Assembly (NCBI RefSeq): GCF_964204865.1
Contig: NC_135261.1
Coordinates: 13,392,001 to 13,456,000, forward strand
Length of the DNA: 64,000 nucleotides
Source of the DNA: Styela clava
Lineage: Eukaryota > Chordata > Ascidiacea > Stolidobranchia > Styelidae
Reading direction: 5' to 3'
Shown here piece after piece: positions 1,971-53,430 of this stretch. The translations under genes and the position numbers were made by a program. The notes beneath the pieces are model-generated. The model made no database searches, was not told where the DNA came from, and saw nothing but the letters and a program-made list of their open reading frames with translations. Within the stretch, counting starts at the first letter, position 1; each line of letters starts with the position of its first letter.

Positions 1971-4542
1971 TCTAACCATAACCTCACAAAGCAATTAAAC
2001 AATTTCTTTGTGGGTGATCAATAGTTCAGCATGTTCCTCTTTACGTTGTCATTGAAGCATCTATACACGCAGATTATTTTTTTCCTTCTCCGGTTGCTTC
2101 ACAATGATGATGAATCTTCAATGTTAATTTTGAAGTGATCCTGTGCAATAACAATTTTTATATCCTTGTCTGAAGTCAATGTTTATGAATGGCTCTGTCT
2201 GACCTTGGTAGCCAATATATTCTTATACCCCATCCTATTGTCTCACCTTAATTTTACTAACTAATACTATTACCGGTAACTTGAAGTACATATTACAATC
2301 TGGACTATAATTTGGCTCTAATATTAGAAATGAAGGGCTCTAACAACCCCACCTCTTCATGCACCCAACACTGACAACTTCGTTTGGCCCATTTGACATT
2401 TGACTCCTACCATAATCAGCTTGGCGATATATTTTCAATAAATGTTTTTAGTTACTGTTCACTCCTGTTTAGAAAATCGATCAATATGGCAATGACAGCC
2501 ATAATACAATTATTAATATGGTTTCACGAGTAATTTTTCTTTTAATTATTTTTTTATTATTCTTAATAACAATGTAGGCTAATTTATCTTAAGTTTGTCG
2601 CGTTTTCTCACTTTGTAATATCTCTCTCTGCCTAAAAGAAATCCCAACTCAAAGAATGAAACCTTGTCGTTTACAACTAATATCAGTCGGCACTAAGTAA
2701 ACGCTAAGCCAGTAGGGGGTGAGTTGTCTGCTTCTCGAGCACAATTATCGTGATGTCGCAGAGAGATTGCTAGGCTGTTTAATTGTCTGCCCCTCATTAC
2801 GGCAGTCGAGTTGTCTGTCTGACATTGCTAACGTTACAACAGACTCAAATTTCTTCTGTAGACTGTATCGGTAAAACATGAAAAAAATATGTCACTTAAG
2901 CCAGTTGCGTAGCAAGACTCTCGTGGGCCCCCCCCCCGCAAAAATATTTCGTGGAAATGACCCTAAAAACTCTCGGACATAAGGTAAAACAACGTTTTGC
3001 TTTTTTTTCGCCAAAAAGCATAACATGTCGCTATAAAAAGGCAATGGTAACCTAAAATTTGCGCTGTCGTGCTTTCGCGTTAGCAAACTCATCCACCATC
3101 TTCGTCATATCAAGTCGGGTCAAGCGTTCAGATTCAATACTCAGCAGCGCCAGTCCAAAGAGCCTTTCCTGCGACATCGTGCTCCTGAGATAATTTTTTA
3201 TTAATTTCAATTTCGAAAACGATCTCTCGGCAGTTGAGGTAGTTACGGGCAACGTTAGAAGGATCAACAAGGCTGTACAAATATCAGGATAACTTGTTGA
3301 AATTCTATGCTCAACCATTAATGCGTGAGCTAATTCTTTTGGAGTTTTCAACGCTGGGAAGGCCTGTCGCATGAACAACTTTAATTTGAGCAACTGCTCC
3401 GGTAAAGCAGAACTTAAATCTTCACTATATTGCTCAAGTAAACGTTGCCCAGCGGAATAAATTTCCTGCTCGTCGCTTTTGAATAATTGTTCTGGGTAAA
3501 GTATGTGAAACCGCTCGTGAATTTTACGATGTCCTTCAAAACGATGTCGTAATTGAAAAATTACTATATTCAGACACCGATAAAATACGTTCACTTTGAA
3601 CCGTGATTCACTATTTAGTGTGGTTCGTTCAAGGTTAATGTCGTCGTAAATCGCTGGCATGTTTTTTTGACGTTTGATAGAGAACTTAGGCTCAACACCC
3701 CAAGTTTCCGCAACTTTGTCAGACTTCTTCCGTATTTCTTGATAATTGTTCCTAATTTTTTGGAAATTTCCTAGAGTGTCTCCAAGTAGAGCCGCTGCCA
3801 TGCCCAAGTCTTGGTTTTGTGATTGCAGAATTTTGGATAATAAATCGATTGGTTGTAGAACAGTCTCCATGAGAACTATCATGATGATAAAATCAAAATT
3901 TTGTAATTTGTTACCGAGCGATACGGCTTCTGATAGCTCTTCAGTTTTCTTGGATCGCAGAATAATCAAATTCAAAGCTTTCATAATATCTGCGTAACGG
4001 TAATGTAAAGCTGTAAGTGAACTGAAACGACTCGACCAGCGCGTTGGGTTCAATCTTTTCAGTGTTTTGTCTTTTTTCGATCCAAACGATGAAAGAATAT
4101 CCCATCTTTTAATACTTTGTCCGAAAAATACATATATCCTATCGACTATAGAGAAAAAATCGTAAATTTCACGGACGTTGTTTACGGCATCGTTTATGAC
4201 TAGGTTCAGGTTATGTGCAGCACAATGTACATAAACTGCTAAAGGCTGTTTCGCAGCAATTCGCCTGCAGGCCATTATATGCACCTTGCATATTTGCTGC
4301 ACAATCACATCCTTGTCCCCTGCACTTCAAAAGATCCAATCCGTTTGCATGCAACAGATATTCTAGCTGGGTTGCAAGTTCGTGCGAAGTTTGTCCAGAA
4401 ACTTTATGAAATCCCAGAAACACTTCTTCAATTTTCACGTCGATTGGCAGATCTCGTTCATTTTTTACTACACGTATGTATCTATATACTCCGGAAAGTT
4501 GGTCAGTTTTTGAAATATCTGGCGTGGTGTCCAAAACGATCT

Positions 4543-12283: not shown

Positions 12284-14635
12284 TTATCGGCCTTTCAAAT
12301 CCAATGCCATTTTGTTCAGAGCACTGCCGGCTTTGAACCAACCTATTTGTCCCTCATTGAACGTATGGTTAAGGGAGAAGCTTTCAGTGGAACCATCAGC
12401 ATGAGTAAGTTTGCATGTAAGAGGTTTACCCGGTTTGAAATCTGTAAGTCCAAGTATAGCAATCTTGTCATCGGGCTGTATTTTGTCATAGTCTGCTGGA
12501 TTCGAAAACGTTAGTGGCAGCATGCCTTGTTTTTTAAGATTGGTTTCATGGATTCTCGCGAAGCTCTTTACTATAATCGCACGTCCTCCAAGATGGCGCG
12601 GTTCCAATGCAGCATGTTCACGACTGCTACCTTCTCCGTAATTCTCATCACCAATGACAACCCATCCGACACCGTTAGCTTTGTAGTGTCGTCCCACATC
12701 AGGTACTGCTCCATATTCTCCAGTCAATTGATTTTTGACTTTGTTGGCTTCATCATTCTCAATATTGATGGCACCGATCAGTAGGTTATTTGATATGTTA
12801 TCAAGATGTCCTCTGTATTTCAACCATGGTCCAGCCATACTGATATGATCAGTTGTACATTTTCCTTTGGCTTTAATCAAGACCTGCAATCCTTCCAAGT
12901 CGGTTCCTTCCCATGCTTTAAAGGGTTCTAGAAGCTGTAGGCGTTGAGATTGAGGATCAACGTTGACCTTCAAAGCTGAACCATCGGCGGGGAATGCTTG
13001 GTAAGTGTCTTCGCCGGCATCAAAACCCTTTGATGGAAGCTCGTCACCAGTTGGAGGTTCCAACATGAAATCTGAACCATCTGCGGCTTTCAAGGTGTCA
13101 GTTTCAGGATTGTAACGCAAGTCTCCAGAAAATGCCAACGCAGTTACTATTTCTGGAGATGTAACGAAAGCGTGAGTTGCAGGGTTGGCATCATTTCTTC
13201 CAGTGAAGTTACGATTGTAAGATGTAACAATTGTGTTTTTCTCACCCATAGCAACATCCTTTCTATCCCATTGTCCAATACAAGGACCACAAGCATTTGC
13301 AAGAACGACGCCACCAACTTGACGAAAGATTTCTGCATATCCATCTCTCTCTATAGTGGCTCTGATTTGCTCAGAACCTGGGGTGATAGTGAAAAGGGAT
13401 TTCGTAGTAAGACCCTTGTCAAGAGCTTGTTTACAAATATGTGCTGACCTTCCCATATCTTCGTAACTGCTGTTTGTACAGCTGCCAATAAGACTGACCT
13501 TAACTTCAGTAGGCCATCCGTTCTTTTCGGCATTTTCACCAACTTCAGACACTGGGTTGTAAAGATCAGGAGTAAAAGGGCCATTTAATGCTGGTTTCAA
13601 CTCATCCAGGTTAATCTTGATAAGTTCGTCATATTGGGCACCTTTGTCTGGCGTTAAAATATCTTTGTATTCTTCAGCAGCTTCAGCAATTTCATGTCTA
13701 TCTGTTGCAACAAGATAATCCCTCATTCTAGAATTGAAAGGAAAAACAGATGTTGTTGCTCCAATTTCAGCTCCCATGTTGCATATCGTACCCATTCCAG
13801 TACAAGATATGGAGTCTACTCCAGGGCCATGATATTCAACAATTGCACCAGTTCCGCCCTTAACAGTGAGAATATCAGCTACTTTCAGAATTACATCTTT
13901 AGGTGAAGTCCATCCTGATAATTTGCCTGTGAGCTCAACACCAATTACGTTCGGACATTTCAATTCCCAAGGTATATTTGCCATAACGTCAACGGCATCA
14001 GCACCACCAACACCAATACAAAGTCCACCAAGTCCTCCACCATTTGGAGTATGGCTATCTGTACCAATAAGAAGAACGCCAGGGAAGGCATAATTTTCCA
14101 AAATAATTTGATGGATGATACCAGATCCTGGTTTCCAGAAACCTACACCATATTTGGCACCAGAAGATTGTAAGAAGTCATAAACTTCCTTGTTTATGTC
14201 TTTTGCACGAGCAAGATCTTTATCACCGCCAATCTGAGCCTGAATCAAATGGTCACAATGTATAGTGGAAGGCACAGCAACTTTGGGCAGCCCACTGCTG
14301 ATAAATTGTAGCATTGCCATTTGCGCTGTAGCATCCTGCATAGCAACACGATCCGGTCTCAATTTTAAATACGATTCGCCTCGTTTGATGTCCTGTCCAT
14401 GAGGGTCGTCTAAATGTCCATATAGGACTTTTTCACTCAAAGTTAAAGGTCGCTGAAGACGATCTCGAACAATCTTTATATTGTTTTCCAGCTTATCATA
14501 AGCTATATTCATATTAGGCTCAAATTTGCTCATCGCTGGAGCAGCTCTTGCAGAAACTTTAGCAGAGAGAGTCAGATTTCGAATATGCATCATTCTGATG
14601 CTTCCCATCTTGCTATACTTCAATAAAGTCGCCAT
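12284..14635 (-). CDS. ACO2: Mitochondrial aconitate hydratase, single coding exon
   Basis: The uninterrupted minus-strand frame from ATG 14635-14633 to TAA gives 783 residues, against about 780 in vertebrates. The enzyme interconverts citrate and isocitrate in the TCA cycle of the mitochondrial matrix. The basic, Ser-rich N-terminus (about 30 residues) fits a transit peptide. Cluster ligands are present: [13 protein letters not shown] with C386, and [13 protein letters not shown] with C449 and C452. [29 protein letters not shown] and [20 protein letters not shown] (with the catalytic Ser loop) are intact. A TTG codon lies in frame at 14650 but the ATG is the natural start. Vertebrate ACO2 has many introns; this copy has none. 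Upstream on the minus strand a pyrimidine-rich tract ending TTTGTCAG/TGAACAG precedes the ATG, looking like a splice or trans-splice acceptor. A retrocopy is possible, but every motif is intact. Confidence 0.96.
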
Positions 14636-14793
14636 TCTGTTCACTGACAAAGACGGCAGACCAAAAAAGAATACTATTTAACAAAAACACTGGAAAACAA
14701 ATCATTATGCACTTATATGAAGTGGGAAATTTCGATTCACTGATTTGAGGAAAGAATACAGACTTTAGCAGCCGAAGCAAAATAACATTGTTA

Positions 14794-24246: not shown

Positions 24247-25672
24247 GAATAAAAATATTTGCGAAATGTCTGTGTCAAAAGCACAGTTGTTTCTCGGTCA
24301 AGTTTCATCGACATTTTGACGAGTTCAAGCTCAGCCATATCGTTAAGAAGACTCAGGTCAGGTTGAATTTATAAACTTCATTCGTATCGAGTAAATGATT
24401 AAAGTCTGCTTAACACTTTACCCTACACTGAAAGTTGCGAAACATGCTGAATAAACGTATAGCATATATATATTTCACCACCGGGTTTATATTATAGTTT
24501 ATCATTGTAGACGATTTGTATGTATTTAATTGTTTTACAAGAAGTAACTATAGTAGAATTAAACAAACAGAAACGCAAATATTCATTTGATTCACATTCG
24601 CTTCAGTCAGATTCCCTTTTCAAGATTTAATGAGCTCGGAAGAAAAAAAATTCGAAGAATAGTTATTTTATGTGTCAGCAAACCTTCGGTGATGCCTTCT
24701 CATCAGTATGCGAAATCCCATTCATATGCTGTAATCAAATAATATAAAAATTAAATTATGTATTAATAGTTTCCTAATGTCACTGATGTTCACTTGGCCT
24801 ACATAAACCGAGGTTGAGGAATATATCGGAATTGTCACGAGTTGTCATATAGTACAAGATAGAACATTTGGCATTCATGATATATATATATATATAACTA
24901 AACTAGTTACTATATTTTATGATGATTTCATTTTTAGGACATAGCTTTGAATAGTGGCAAATCCAGAAAATATGTCTGAAATTAGCAAATGAATGATTTC
25001 TGAAATTTCGTGTTTGTATTGAAAAGTTCTACATTTTTCTGATACACATAAGCTAATTGAACTGAAAAAAAAAATCAAAAATATTTTTTATTGGATTTGG
25101 GATTCGCTCCAGCAAAATTGAAGTCACGAAATCATAAAATTAAGAAGGAAGTTTTAGGTTATCGAAAATAACCATGACTTCATTTTTGAAAGTGACTCAC
25201 TTCCTTCTTAAATTACTTAATACCGAATCAAATTTTATATTCAACCTAATTATTGAATATTAAATTGTATTGGAAAACCGAATTGATGTTATTACATGAT
25301 ATGATTGAAGTAGATTAAATGAATAATTTTTTGATTATAAATAATTACCATAAAGATATTCGCTAAATGTTCTTTACTGAGAATTTTGTACCAGATGGGA
25401 AACCTTGATGAATTACATATGTTTTCATTTTATCATTAAGTTAATTGCTGAGGGTAAACGCCACAAATCTGTCACCAATAAAAGTGTTAAATTAATATTC
25501 ACAATAGTGTTTTCAATACGGATTGCTGAAGTTGGTAAAATATTTGTTTTGTGGTCCAGCGACTCAAATAATTTATGTTATTGCTGATGCACCCCTAAAA
25601 GGACTGCCGTCATTTAAATTCTACAACACATACTTTATGAAACAGTTTCATGGAATGAATTTTTGCCTAGAT
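24247..25672. other. Non-coding AT-rich stretch
   Basis: No gene or mobile element was recognised. It contains a short TA run near 24880. Confidence 0.4.
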
Positions 25673-26172
25673 CAGGGGTCGGCAAACTACGGCCCGCGGG
25701 GCGGATCCGGCCCGCGGAGTAATATAATCCGGCCCGCGATGCTTCACGATGAATTATAGTAACAAAACAGCTGTTTTTGACGATTAAATTCTTTACACAA
25801 CAGAATTTGTTGTGAGACACTTGTAGACTAAATTATATTATAACCTAACAAGTATATAATTCACAATTACTCGTTTAATGAGCCTATAATTCAATTAGAA
25901 TTAGACAAATGGCAACAAAACGCAGAGAAGGTAATGCTAAACCTAAAGGCAAAGGTTTCAATGGCGCCGAAAATACTCGAATGAATTTTTTTTAGATGCA
26001 ATGCAATGAGGAAATAAATCTATATCTTATTTGAGAGATGTATCACCGCTTGATTTTCATTATAAAAAGTATCATCTGTTCGGTTTTCAACTTTCTAAAA
26101 ATATGTGCGACCCACCAATGACTTGCAACCCTTAATTTTGGCCCGCGAGCGACAAAAGGTTGCCGACCCCTG
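25673..26172. mobile_element. hAT MITE (CAGGGGTCGGCAAAC type), 500 bp, perfect TSD
   Basis: CAGGGGTCGGCAAACTACGG at the left and the inverted CAGGGGTCGGCAACCTTTTG at the right, with CGGCCCGCGG-type subterminal words, are flanked by perfect GCCTAGAT repeats (25665-25672 and 26173-26180). This terminus type is widespread among animal hAT (Charlie-like) elements. It ends only 30 bp past the stop codon of the Cys-rich gene, so it may supply that gene's 3' end. Confidence 0.9.
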
Positions 26173-26201
26173 GCCTAGATAGATTTTTTCCATTGTAAAT
26201 T

Positions 26202-27930
26202 TTAAATCCTACCGCGATGGCAATTCTTTGTAACTTCGTACGATCCCACGAAAAACTTAGCCATACATCCATTGCAGCATGATATGCATTTTGCGGAAGG
26301 ATATCTTGGACAACTCGTTACGTCACATGCATCTGCCTTGCACGCTTGGGCTGTACATATCTGCGGACAGTATTCTATAAAAATGAAATGAATTATAAAT
26401 TTCAATCTCCATTGGACTTCAATGAAACTGCTACTGGGCTACCGTATGGACAGCCAGTCTCACCTTTGGAGGATTTTCACTCAAGTGATTTACTACCAAT
26501 CAGGTACAGAGATATGTTAAACAATTGTATTTGGTCTATCCGAAAGAGCAAACATTGAAAAACTTCACAAACATTTTCTAGAACCAAAAGGGAGCAATAG
26601 CCACTGTAACAATATATACACTTTAGATAAGTCCACTGCCTGGCGGAGGCATGTTATGTGGTGTAAATTATTAGGATTTGGGTAAATTTTATGCGAGTAA
26701 AATGGTAATAACTGCGAAAAAGAAAAACGAATATCTCCTGAAAGAAGGGAGCGATGCTCAACTATATGGACACGAAGCCAAAACGGAGTTGCATCAAATT
26801 TTATACAGGGGTACCTGGGGTCTATTTTATAAAAAAAAAAGTCTCGACTTTGCTTATCACGTTATCGCTGAAATGCGATTGCGCTACCGCCACACATTGC
26901 GCAATTTTTAATTTTGAAGATGTCATCCCACAACACACTTCAAAATGAAAAACGAATCCCATACAGGCCACAGAAATTTTTGAGGTGAATAAAAGCAAAT
27001 AACCTTCCAGCGACAACAACAATCTTTAACTAAAATTTCAAATCAATTGGTCCAGTAGGGGAAGATAAAGGCAATTTTTTCACAACAACAACAACAAGAA
27101 TAGTCAGACAACAACAACAATAATTTACCAAAGCAATTCATAGGTTCATTTCGTGTCCAATAGGCAATAAATTGTCATTCCCAACACTTGTTCAGATAGA
27201 ATATATGTATCCAAAACTTACCACACAATTTTGTCACGTCCCAATTCAAAATACCGGTATAAAATCTTGCAATGCAACCGTTACAGCATGATCTACATTT
27301 CGCAAAAGGTACACTCGGGCAAAATGTAACGTCACATGCATCTGTTTTACAAACTTGGCCGTAACATCCTGGGCAATCTAGCAAACATTCAGAATATTAT
27401 TCATATATCTATGGGAATATTATGAGATCAGGTCTCTGGGTTTTGATAGGCTTGTTATGAGTCGTTACTCTTTGAGTCTTTCATAAAGAATAAAAATTTT
27501 ACTCGATTCAAATTGTCATTTTTATTGCTTTAAAAGTGCCAATTTTAAGACAGATGTCAACTACGGTTGCTGTCAACTTCAAGTCGGGTCAATTTCAAGT
27601 CCTTGGCAAAAGACCTGACAAGGTTTAATCAGTTGAAGCTCTACGAATAAAATACAAAGCATAGTCGAATCTGACTCAAGAATCACCCGAGTCGATGTAA
27701 CAAATTACTGTCATTTAATCTTTGACTTATTAGCGTAGTATTTCTGTTCGTGAGAAATTGGGTACAACTTCAAAAAAGATTTGCAATGAAACTAAAACAC
27801 CACGTTAGACTTCATACAATTGCTTACAAATAAATTGAATAAGATACTACTTACTGCTACTCCACGCGGGGGTGCAAAGGAACACCACGATTGTTAACAA
27901 CAACAAATTAACGGTGATCGAAGGCGACAT
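26202..27930 (-). CDS. Small secreted two-repeat cysteine-rich protein, 3 exons
   Basis: Minus-strand exons 27930-27855, 27377-27222 and 26374-26202 join with phase 1 at both junctions to give 134 residues. Exon 1 is essentially a signal peptide (MSPSITVNLLLLTIVVFLC, then a PAWSS end). Exons 2 and 3 each encode one copy of a repeat sharing KxDACDVTxCP, then AKCxSCCNGC, then VTKxC, with 10 cysteines in each (C-x4-C-x4-C-x7-C-x2-CC-x2-C core). I do not recognise a named domain. The cysteine-dense secreted form suits a protease inhibitor, antimicrobial or metal-binding peptide; the final C-x2-C-x3-C recalls ascidian vanabins. The start is chosen because it alone gives a signal peptide and a phase-1 GTAAGT donor. 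A TTTATAC about 85 bases upstream could be a TATA element. No conventional poly(A) signal precedes the downstream hAT. Confidence 0.8.
27033..27172. repeat. Dispersed AATTGGTCCAGTA / CAACAACAA / TTCATAGG repeat
   Basis: Lies in intron 2 of the Cys-rich gene. ATTTCAAATCAATTGGTCC, a CAACAACAACAACAA run and CAATTCATAGGTTCATTTCG are in order. Parts in the same order occur at 22492-22545, 34018-34085, 54629-54680 and 55790-55915. Confidence 0.6.
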
Positions 27931-48868: not shown

Positions 48869-49339
48869 GGCTAGATAACTATCGCTCGGGCTAGTAAATC
48901 GATCTCTCATTGCTCAAATAACTTTGACTTTCCATCTTTGATTAAAAAAACAACCTTTTTTTCATGAATACGCCCGTGAATTATTTTATTCAATCAATTT
49001 AAACCACAAATACAAATATATATATTATATACGATGTTGCTAAATAACACCAAATGTTAAACATTCATAGCACCCACAAAATATTTTGTTAGTTGTATAT
49101 ACATACACATTTGTTCACTTTGCACCTGCAAAAAATGGTGAACAGTTGTAATATTAAATGAAATAATTCTATAAATTGAATAATTTTAAACTTTTAGCCC
49201 AAAATTTGTCTTCGGCTGCATATATTTTGATCTTGGTAATACGGAAAGACCCGTTCGGTCTATGGGCTAAACTTGGGTATTGAGGAAGTGAAAAAATCTG
49301 TTATATTAAAATTTATTCTATTCTTTAGTGTCGAATTTA

Positions 49340-50944
49340 CTAAAAAAATTTACCACAATTGGCTTTGCAAGCTATGCATGCTTCCGATGAACCATCAAGA
49401 ACACATATATCTTCGTCACACTCTTCAATGCATTCGTCTATCATTTTATTCCTGACCATTGTCTTAACATCTGATGAATAAAATAAAATTTAGGTTATAC
49501 GATTCTTATTGAAATATTTTAAAACAAAATCACGTGCACTCACTCGAAAAAGTAAAAAAGTAAGAAAGCTTCCTTCAAGTAAACTCAAAGGAAACCACTT
49601 CAATGCCTAAACCAGCGAAATCAATCAGACACGCGGTAAATAACAAATGTTTTCGCGACATTGTGTATGTCTTTGAATGGATATTTATAGACTGTCAAAG
49701 TTGAGCACAAATGGTACATCGTGATAAATTCCGGGTGCTCTTTAGAGTTTATACCAAATTTAAAGATATCTTAAATATTATATAAGATGATATCAGTTTA
49801 TCATCATTAATTCCTAGGTTAAGATGAGTCTTGCCCCGCCCATCTACATATAGGACACATAGTTATTATTTTAATTTTTATAGAAAATTACATTTTAGTG
49901 AACATTATTACCTTTTGCATAGTCTATGAGCGGTTAAAGACATTCAAATCAACAGACGCTGTGATTGATCGGATGTTCACAAAAATATCGTCATATTTAT
50001 TACATTTTTTATTTGAATACCTGCTGGAATGCAGTAGTCTATGCATCTTTGACAAGAACATCTGGATTTGACTCGACTGCAATCGTGTCCTAAAGAACAT
50101 TGTTTCCTCGCCTCAACGACACATTCCACGTGATCAAAAAATGGCACGACGTCATCGTCATATTCTGAGAAGAGAAAACAAAATGCACATTCATCACACA
50201 GGTTGAGTAAAAATTTGAACCAGATGTCAAAAACTAAAGAAACTGCTGAGAAGTCGTTAGAGAATTGTTTTCGAAATAGAAAAAAAAACGGTGGTACTTT
50301 AATCAGAGTTGAAACTTAATGCAGATCAACCTACCGCATTTTGACGAAATGCATTTGTGACATGATGTCAAAGGGCTGTCTTTTGACATCTCGCAGGAAG
50401 CTCTGCAATACCTTGTGAGACATTCAATTTTTTTTGGAGGGACGAACTCCAATTTAAACTCGGCGAATAAGACATCGTCTGGCGTGTCAGGGCTTGCGAC
50501 AGATCTTACCAATCTGATCCCGCGTGCAGAGACGGACATCCCTTTAATGCAATAGATATATAATCTTAAAAATATATCGTAATGTGATTAAAGTCATTAT
50601 TATGAACTCATTCGTTACACAATAAATTCAAAGTTGTGAAAGCTACAAACATTCACATACTAAAATCTAGCAAAAACAGTCAATAATAATTAATATTTCA
50701 GACAACTCTCGGATAGTTAAATCACGTACATGGGCCCATGCTCATTGGCACTCTCAATGGCCTGATTTAGGAATTTAAATTTGAAAACAATATATTGTTT
50801 GATGGTACTGCTTTGTATGTACGAACATATTGTATGAAATATAAAAAAAAAGTTTCGTTATTCATACATAGCTATTTATATTTTATACTTACTTTGAAAA
50901 ATCACAAACGCTACTACCATGCTTGAGATAATGTTACTTTGCAT
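49340..50944 (-). CDS. Secreted multi-module cysteine-rich protein (vanabin-like spacing), 4 exons
   Basis: Minus-strand exons 50944-50893, 50541-50335, 50164-50021 and 49470-49340 join with phase 1 at all three junctions to give 177 residues. Exon 1 is a hydrophobic signal sequence (MQSNIISSMVVAFVIFQ). Exons 2, 3 and 4 each hold one module with 6, 7 and 6 cysteines: ECLTRYCRASC then SCHKCISSKC; QCSLGHDC then CSCQRCIDYC; ECIEECDEDIC then ACIACKANC. All end in C-x2-C-x3/4-C. The C-x2-5-C spacing recalls ascidian vanabins (vanadium-binding proteins); this is resemblance, not proof. Acidic runs precede some modules. A TATATATAAG box lies about 90 bp upstream. AATAAA on the minus strand near 49310 follows the stop. 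An alternative donor at 49354 could extend the gene to 46386. The acceptor of exon 2 is pyrimidine-poor, the weakest point of the model. Confidence 0.72.
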
Positions 50945-51032
50945 CTTGAAATATTTTCACATGCAATTCAAAGGTAGCAATTCGTATTAAACTTTTTACT
51001 CACTTTGTCAAACATTCGTCTTGTCTTCTTAT

Positions 51033-51045
51033 ATATACTATTTAG
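51033..51045 (-). promoter_or_regulatory. TATA box of the Cys-rich gene
   Basis: The minus strand reads TATATATAAGAAG here, about 90 bases before the ATG at 50944, a good TATA element for that gene. Confidence 0.55.
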
Positions 51046-52230: not shown

Positions 52231-53430
52231 TGCACCAGTAATTGCACCCATGGCAATCGCGCCTGCATACATTTGCACCCATGAACAATTGCTGTCACCA
52301 CCATGAACAGTATATATTCTTGCTACTCGCTTCAGGCATCGCATATTGGTGGCATAGAACTAATAATTTATTTCCCATAACCAGAAAGAAAATTGGATTT
52401 CGTGATTTTTGGTAAATAATCGATAGTGTTCTAAACTAAACAATCACAAATCTGCCATTCACCTCAGACTGCTGGGAATTGGCCACCGTTGTTTTCGCTT
52501 TTAAAAACAATAGTGATCGGACGAACTCTTGTAAATATCGCCCTATTAGTCTCTTGCCAATAATAAGCAAAGTATTGACTCATCAACACAATCATTACTG
52601 ACTACTTAGAATCACATGCTATTTTAATCGACAAACAATACGGTTTTGTCGAAAGCGTTCCAATGTCAATTTTATAACTGCTACAACTAAAAAAACTCTT
52701 GACCTACATTATTACTTATTTTCAACATTCACCTTTCTGAATTTGAAAATAGACAAAATCGTATAATCCGATCGTTATATTAATCCTAATACAGCTTCAA
52801 TCTCTTCTGTTTTAAGAGTGTGCGCGCGACCTTGTTTTGAGCAAATGTGACTAAGAAGGTCTCATTATCTTTGCATCCACCTACATTTGCACACAGAACA
52901 ATTGCACCTGCATACCTTTGCACCCACGGACATTTGCATTCATTAACAACTGCACCCATACATTTGCACCTGCAGATTTTAGCATCTACATACAGATTGC
53001 ACCCATGAACATTTCCACCCATGGATATTTGCACTCGTGGACATTTGCACCCACAGATATTGGCACCCACGGCTATTCGCACCCACGCACATTTGCATCT
53101 CTGAACACTTGCATTTATGGAATATTGCACCAGTAAACATTTACACCCATGGATACCAGTCATTGAAGTAAAATAAGTTTTATTGCCATTTGCGAGAATA
53201 GGGAATCCTAATGTTATATATGGTAATGAAGACGAACTCACTACAAACCCGAACGCGATCAATTTGAACGGGGTGCAAATGACCGTGGGTTCAAATGTAC
53301 ACGGGTCCAAATGTCCGTAGGTTCTATCTATATGTGGGTGCTAAAATCTATGAATAGAAATGTATAGGTGCGAATGTTAGTGAGTGCAAAAGTACTGATT
53401 ACAATTTACGGGTGCAAATGTGCCGTCACT
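52231..53430. repeat. Inverted minisatellite of about 16-17-bp units
   Basis: Degenerate units of the type CACCCATGGACATTTG run in plus orientation at about 52231-52300 and 52870-53160. At about 53265-53430 the units are inverted (GGGTGCAAATGTCCGT). A Cys-rich open frame of 174 codons on the minus strand (52786-53310) is an artefact of the unit length and phase. A LINE fragment lies between the arrays. Confidence 0.7.
52505..52670 (+). pseudogene. LINE reverse-transcriptase fragment
   Basis: One frame reads CKYRPISLLPIISKVLT, the conserved reverse-transcriptase block of Jockey/CR1/RTE-like non-LTR retrotransposons. After a frameshift near 52582 it continues NTIITDYLESHAILIDKQYG and F. Only about 55 codons remain and there is no flanking LINE coding sequence. 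Confidence 0.7.

Follow-up and report, generated by a model that had tools for sequence, protein, structure and literature searches.

Vanabins are described as a unique protein family confined to vanadium-rich ascidians, with 18 conserved cysteines and a bow-shaped structure that contains nine disulfides (PMC9486056). A second account describes the vanabin disulfides as arrayed along a helix-helix interface (PMC13348028). Vanabin2 is reported to bind V(IV) via lysine and arginine residues, while VanabinX is reported to be without those residues, yet it is named a vanabin (PMC9486056). We find that the Vanabin2 sequence splits into three six-cysteine units and that it contains 19 Lys+Arg and 13 Asp+Glu residues.

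Here we analyze a cysteine-rich gene found in a 64,000-nucleotide stretch of DNA (the window; positions below are those of the window unless a contig is named). Judged from its translation, the gene product looks like a small secreted protein made up of three cysteine-rich modules. The initial annotation had likened this protein to the vanabins and had paired the gene with a second cysteine-rich gene at 26-28 kb. We describe the gene and its relatives before weighing these two proposals.

Gene structure and organization

The gene occupies positions 49340-50944 of the minus strand, exactly where it had been annotated, with the ATG at 50944 and the stop codon ending at 49340. Four exons of 52, 207, 144, and 131 bases encode a protein of 177 residues, 19 of which are cysteine. 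The three introns are all GT-AG and all in phase 1. Exon 1 (50893..50944) carries the start codon and a hydrophobic N-terminus, and ends at a phase 1 intron with the donor gtaagt. Exon 2 (50335..50541) contains a linker and module 1, whose six cysteines are spaced C-x4-C-x3-C-x10-C-x2-C-x4-C. Exon 3 (50021..50164) contains module 2, with seven cysteines spaced C-x7-C-x5-C-x6-C-x1-C-x2-C-x3-C, and exon 4 (49340..49470) contains module 3, with six cysteines spaced C-x3-C-x4-C-x8-C-x2-C-x3-C, and the stop codon. The earlier description of three consecutive phase-1 module exons with 6-7 cysteines each is thus accurate (6, 7, and 6), as is that of module ends of the form C-x2-C-x3/4-C, the endings being C-x2-C-x4-C in module 1 and C-x2-C-x3-C in modules 2 and 3. 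The locus is a genuine gene and not a chance arrangement.

Two further features of the initial annotation hold in part. The signal peptide corresponds to a hydrophobic N-terminus (mean Kyte-Doolittle hydropathy of 2.82 over residues 5-15), which is consistent with secretion. The TATA box corresponds to two TATA-like sites, TATATATA and TATATAAG, at 51028..51037 of the minus strand, starting 93 and 91 bases 5' of the ATG; they are consensus matches only, as is an AATAAA polyadenylation-type hexamer (49312..49317, minus strand) that starts 23 bases past the end of the stop codon. Residues 18-177 carry 23 Lys+Arg versus 27 Asp+Glu, making the protein slightly acidic. A search for a fourth module covered minus-strand positions 49400 to 38001 and yielded four frames with at least five cysteines per 40 residues, none of which has the module spacing by eye; the plus strand yielded two such frames.

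Other open frames on the minus strand of the window were read by eye. A 797-residue frame at 12287-14677 reads like a mitochondrial aconitase and is apparently intronless, and a frame at 3055-4326 resembles a hAT-type transposase. The cysteine-rich frame at 52789-53340 seems to be built from a short repeated unit; it is more likely to be repeat sequence than a gene.

A paralog and probable relatives on contig C6

The genome searched comprises 376.6 Mb in 379 contigs. On contig C9 (16160500-16180499; loci L022, L023, and L011), exons that by eye resemble cellulose synthase precede a GH6 domain, the single match to Pfam PF01341 (35.4 bits, cut-off 27). The pairing of cellulose synthase with GH6 marks tunicates, and the genome is therefore that of a tunicate. 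A cellulose synthase and a GH6 domain are described in tunicates in PMC7464555. A search for COX1, intended to reveal the mitochondrial code, came back empty.

Searching the whole genome with the window protein returned at least seven matches at E<=10: its own three module exons, three ordered exons at C6:3112075-3113834, and one weak match at C6:12389881. The three ordered exons match exons 2, 3, and 4 with E values of 2.0e-8, 1.7e-12, and 0.0068, respectively, and belong to a paralog that has all three modules in order, its own first exon, and the same intron phases as the window gene. The two proteins are identical at 67 of 171 aligned residues. Mismatches between the genes at codon positions 1, 2, and 3 number 73, 62, and 100, and this third-position excess indicates that the coding sequence is under constraint. 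Without its first 20 residues the paralog has 18 cysteines, and its charge is near neutral (25 Lys+Arg versus 24 Asp+Glu).

The weak match (E 0.07) is the only one, among those listed, to a putative long gene at C6:12.385-12.391 Mb, where 13 cysteine-rich open frames follow one another on one strand, some of them with Gly/Pro/Arg-rich stretches; we propose phase-1 exons for most of the 13. In a five-row alignment that includes the window gene and three hand-joined frame triplets of this long gene, 17 cysteine columns are invariant. From these comparisons the long multi-module gene is a probable, weaker relative of the window gene. Its own genome search gave five matches, all within itself. Next to the paralog, a long stretch rich in Thr contains repeats of the TTDMTT type and has modules with five to seven cysteines on either side (L021 8245-10000 and L009 1-1132); the arrangement looks like a mucin-type gene.

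Neither Pfam (window protein, paralog, and module pieces), NCBIfam (window protein), nor PDB sequence searches (window protein) assigned a family. The PDB searches listed a LAC9 fragment (E 1.8) and NR1D1 (E 0.87), both of which were rejected as apparent chance hits on cysteines that bind zinc.

We propose, with about even confidence, that the window protein is a short soluble secreted member of a small tunicate modular family and has an extracellular matrix-type role. It would have three modules rich in disulfides, each encoded by its own phase-1 exon, and would represent the short soluble form of the family, its probable relatives carrying similar modules within long extracellular proteins that are Thr-rich (mucin-like) or Gly/Pro/Arg-rich. 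Outside the cell, such a protein would most likely serve as a block for building or binding in mucus, the tunic, or another matrix, one that is rigid and resists proteases. We suggest mucus or matrix because the probable C6 relatives seem to carry Thr-rich or Gly/Pro/Arg-rich linkers, and these linkers are the single feature that points to such a role.

Because it is small, cysteine-rich, and secreted-looking, and has a short paralog, the protein might instead serve in defense or signaling, for example as a disulfide-rich antimicrobial in blood cells. We consider this unlikely, as the third-position excess between the paralogs suggests constraint and not rapid change, and the probable relatives resemble matrix proteins.

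Cysteine spacing and predicted structure of the modules

The vanabin-like cysteine spacing proposed for the window protein is present in modules 1 and 3 but not in module 2, whose seven cysteines depart from the six-cysteine unit. A unit with successive gaps of 3-4, 3-4, n, 2-3, and 3-4 residues describes two of the three modules here and three of three in Vanabin2. This pattern, which was set after the modules had been seen, matches the window protein twice, and none of 5000 residue shuffles contains two matches. A strict pattern derived from Vanabin2 alone gives one match, with at least one in 12/5000 shuffles, and allowing one residue of slack gives two matches (0/5000 shuffles). The fixed Vanabin2-derived pattern fits both the window gene and the C6 paralog. 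It fits the other C6 genes poorly: the long gene has no strict match and one with slack (405/5000 shuffles), and the Thr-rich gene has none with either version. The resemblance between the window protein and the vanabins is mostly one of how the cysteines are spaced.

Single exons encoding modules 1 and 3 were modeled with AlphaFold2, each from one sequence without an alignment. The exon 2 model (module 1) has helices at residues 35-43, 46-50, and 56-67 of 68, with a mean pLDDT of 62.4, and the exon 4 model (module 3) has helices at residues 9-18, 21-25, and 28-38 of 42, with a mean pLDDT of 66.1. The pTM values, 0.37 for one model and 0.30 for the other, indicate low confidence. The models suggest, at that low confidence, that modules 1 and 3 are helical hairpins, each probably held by three nested disulfides. 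The initial annotation had named a fold without bundled helices as evidence against a vanabin; the two modules are instead predicted to be helical.

Vanabin membership

Were the window protein a divergent vanabin, it would have three units and about 18 cysteines and would bind or reduce vanadium in blood cells or plasma. The two matches to the three-unit spacing of Vanabin2 together with a third cysteine-rich module are consistent with this reading, and so is the helical form of the two AlphaFold2 models. The genome also holds genes that pass the Pfam Vanabin-2 cut-off and have their cysteine-rich units in phase-1 exons. These nearly identical, Lys/Arg-rich genes are arranged in tandem at C17:10365650-10373217 and C112:334-8491 (loci L012-L018). 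Four of their exons exceed the cut-off, at 26.2-27 bits (E 0.0014-0.0025), and a protein hand-joined from C17 contains 44 Lys+Arg and 17 Asp+Glu residues. When the whole genome was searched with the window gene and with the C17 vanabin-like gene, neither found the other among the matches listed.

The Pfam Vanabin-2 family (PF11437, cut-off 25 bits) provides the test that weighs most, because both positive controls match it, with 40.5 bits for Vanabin2 and 34.5 bits for the protein joined from C17. The window protein matched no family at E<=10. Searches of the PDB with the window protein and with profiles did not return 1VFI, the Vanabin2 structure. These empty searches say little, because the C17 vanabin-like control gene missed 1VFI as well. 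In preparing the profiles, MAFFT shifted the first cysteine of most A3 rows and one module 3 Cys in A4, so that both profiles misplace cysteines and their PDB negatives are weak. Alignment with hhalign gave a probability of 2.8 per cent over 12 columns, with the C17 control reaching only 12.0 per cent. Vanabin2 used alone as a query found nothing in the genome, though Pfam Vanabin-2 found four places there, and this negative is likewise a weak one.

Pairwise and profile scores were compared with those of shuffled sequences. The score between the window protein and Vanabin2 is common among shuffles, being reached by 96/1000 full shuffles and by 333/1000 shuffles in which the cysteines were kept in place; for the C6 paralog the corresponding counts are 201/1000 and 787/1000. 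The C17 protein reaches a score against Vanabin2 that only 7/1000 full shuffles attain, and this score is explained by cysteine positions, since 448/1000 cysteine-kept shuffles attain it too. A profile built from 12 family modules gave Vanabin2 10.2 bits, above all 500 full shuffles and exceeded or equaled by 11/500 cysteine-kept shuffles, a weak result in favor of the vanabin reading. The same profile did not detect the C17 vanabin-like protein (128/500 full shuffles). In the reverse direction, a vanabin-unit profile scored the window protein much as it did shuffles (343/500 full and 423/500 cysteine-kept). In the profile tests, any shuffle that produced no hit was assigned a score of -20, which lowers the means and leaves these counts unaffected.

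The lack of profile similarity that the initial annotation had named as arguing against a vanabin is what we observe at the sensitivity of the Pfam, hhalign, and PDB-profile searches, with the 10.2 bits of the 12-module profile on Vanabin2 as one weak contrary result. The net charge of the window protein also speaks against a vanabin when set beside the Lys/Arg-mediated V(IV) binding of Vanabin2. Acidic charge does not decide membership, however, because VanabinX lacks these Lys/Arg residues and is still named a vanabin. On the sequence comparisons made here, vanabin membership of the window protein is not supported, and we regard a divergent vanabin as very unlikely.

The second cysteine-rich gene of the window

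The gene at 26-28 kb (24703-27930, minus strand) encodes a secreted-looking protein with two cysteine-rich modules and belongs to a large family. Used as a query against the genome, it returned 57 matches at E<=10, including three to its own exons; 26 of the 57 have E values below 0.001. The matches are spread over many contigs, with many clustered on C17, C9, and C14. Three pieces of its relatives matched no Pfam family. The six-cysteine unit is absent by both the post-hoc pattern and the strict Vanabin2 pattern, and the single match with slack is at chance level (571/5000 shuffles).

The initial annotation had assigned the two genes the same modular plan, which does not fit the two modules and different cysteine pattern found here. 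It had also placed an SLC5 gene between them, and the intervening gene does look SLC5-like, with a Pfam SSF score of 32 bits obtained from hand-picked, hand-joined exon pieces. That the two cysteine-rich genes are members of one family flanking this gene can be dismissed as next to impossible at the sensitivity of these searches: the shared strand, the SLC5-like neighbor, the cysteine-rich exons after phase-1 introns in both genes, and a pairwise score reached by 38/1000 full (118/1000 cysteine-kept) shuffles stand against differing cysteine patterns and the absence of any cross-match, with none of the 57 matches falling at the 49340-50944 gene and none of the at least seven matches to the window protein, among those listed, falling at 26-28 kb.

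Comparison with known systems

A broader origin of the modules can also be considered. Tentatively, and as a somewhat improbable proposal, the vanabins may belong, as a single branch, to a larger superfamily of tunicate proteins that arose from a duplicated and shuffled exon encoding a six-cysteine helical hairpin. In that case the window gene, with its three modules, would be a member without a part in vanadium biology, and the origin of the unit would be seen in the long genes of matrix type. A module-per-exon family with vanabin-like spacing, beside exon-modular vanabin-like genes, would be a concrete place to seek the source of the vanabins. Otherwise, the window gene represents one more secreted cysteine-rich family without a Pfam or NCBIfam name.

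Compared with its neighbor at 26-28 kb, the window gene shares its strand, a secreted-looking product, and cysteine-rich exons after phase-1 introns. The neighbor differs in having its own cysteine pattern, DACDVTxCPxxPxAKCxSCCNGC, and in the lack of a cross-match. The vanabin-like genes on C17 (10.365-10.373 Mb) and C112 resemble the window gene in their hydrophobic N-terminus and their cysteine-rich units in phase-1 exons, but, unlike it, they are strongly basic and pass the Pfam Vanabin-2 cut-off. With the vanabins themselves (PF11437; Vanabin2, 1VFI), the window protein shares the spacing of the six-cysteine unit in two of its three modules, a cysteine count near 18, a tunicate source, and helices bearing cysteines, which here are modeled only. 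It differs from them in the off-pattern module 2, in the missing Pfam match, and in a net acidic charge where Vanabin2 is basic, and its modules are separated by linkers, whereas the units of Vanabin2 are nearly contiguous.
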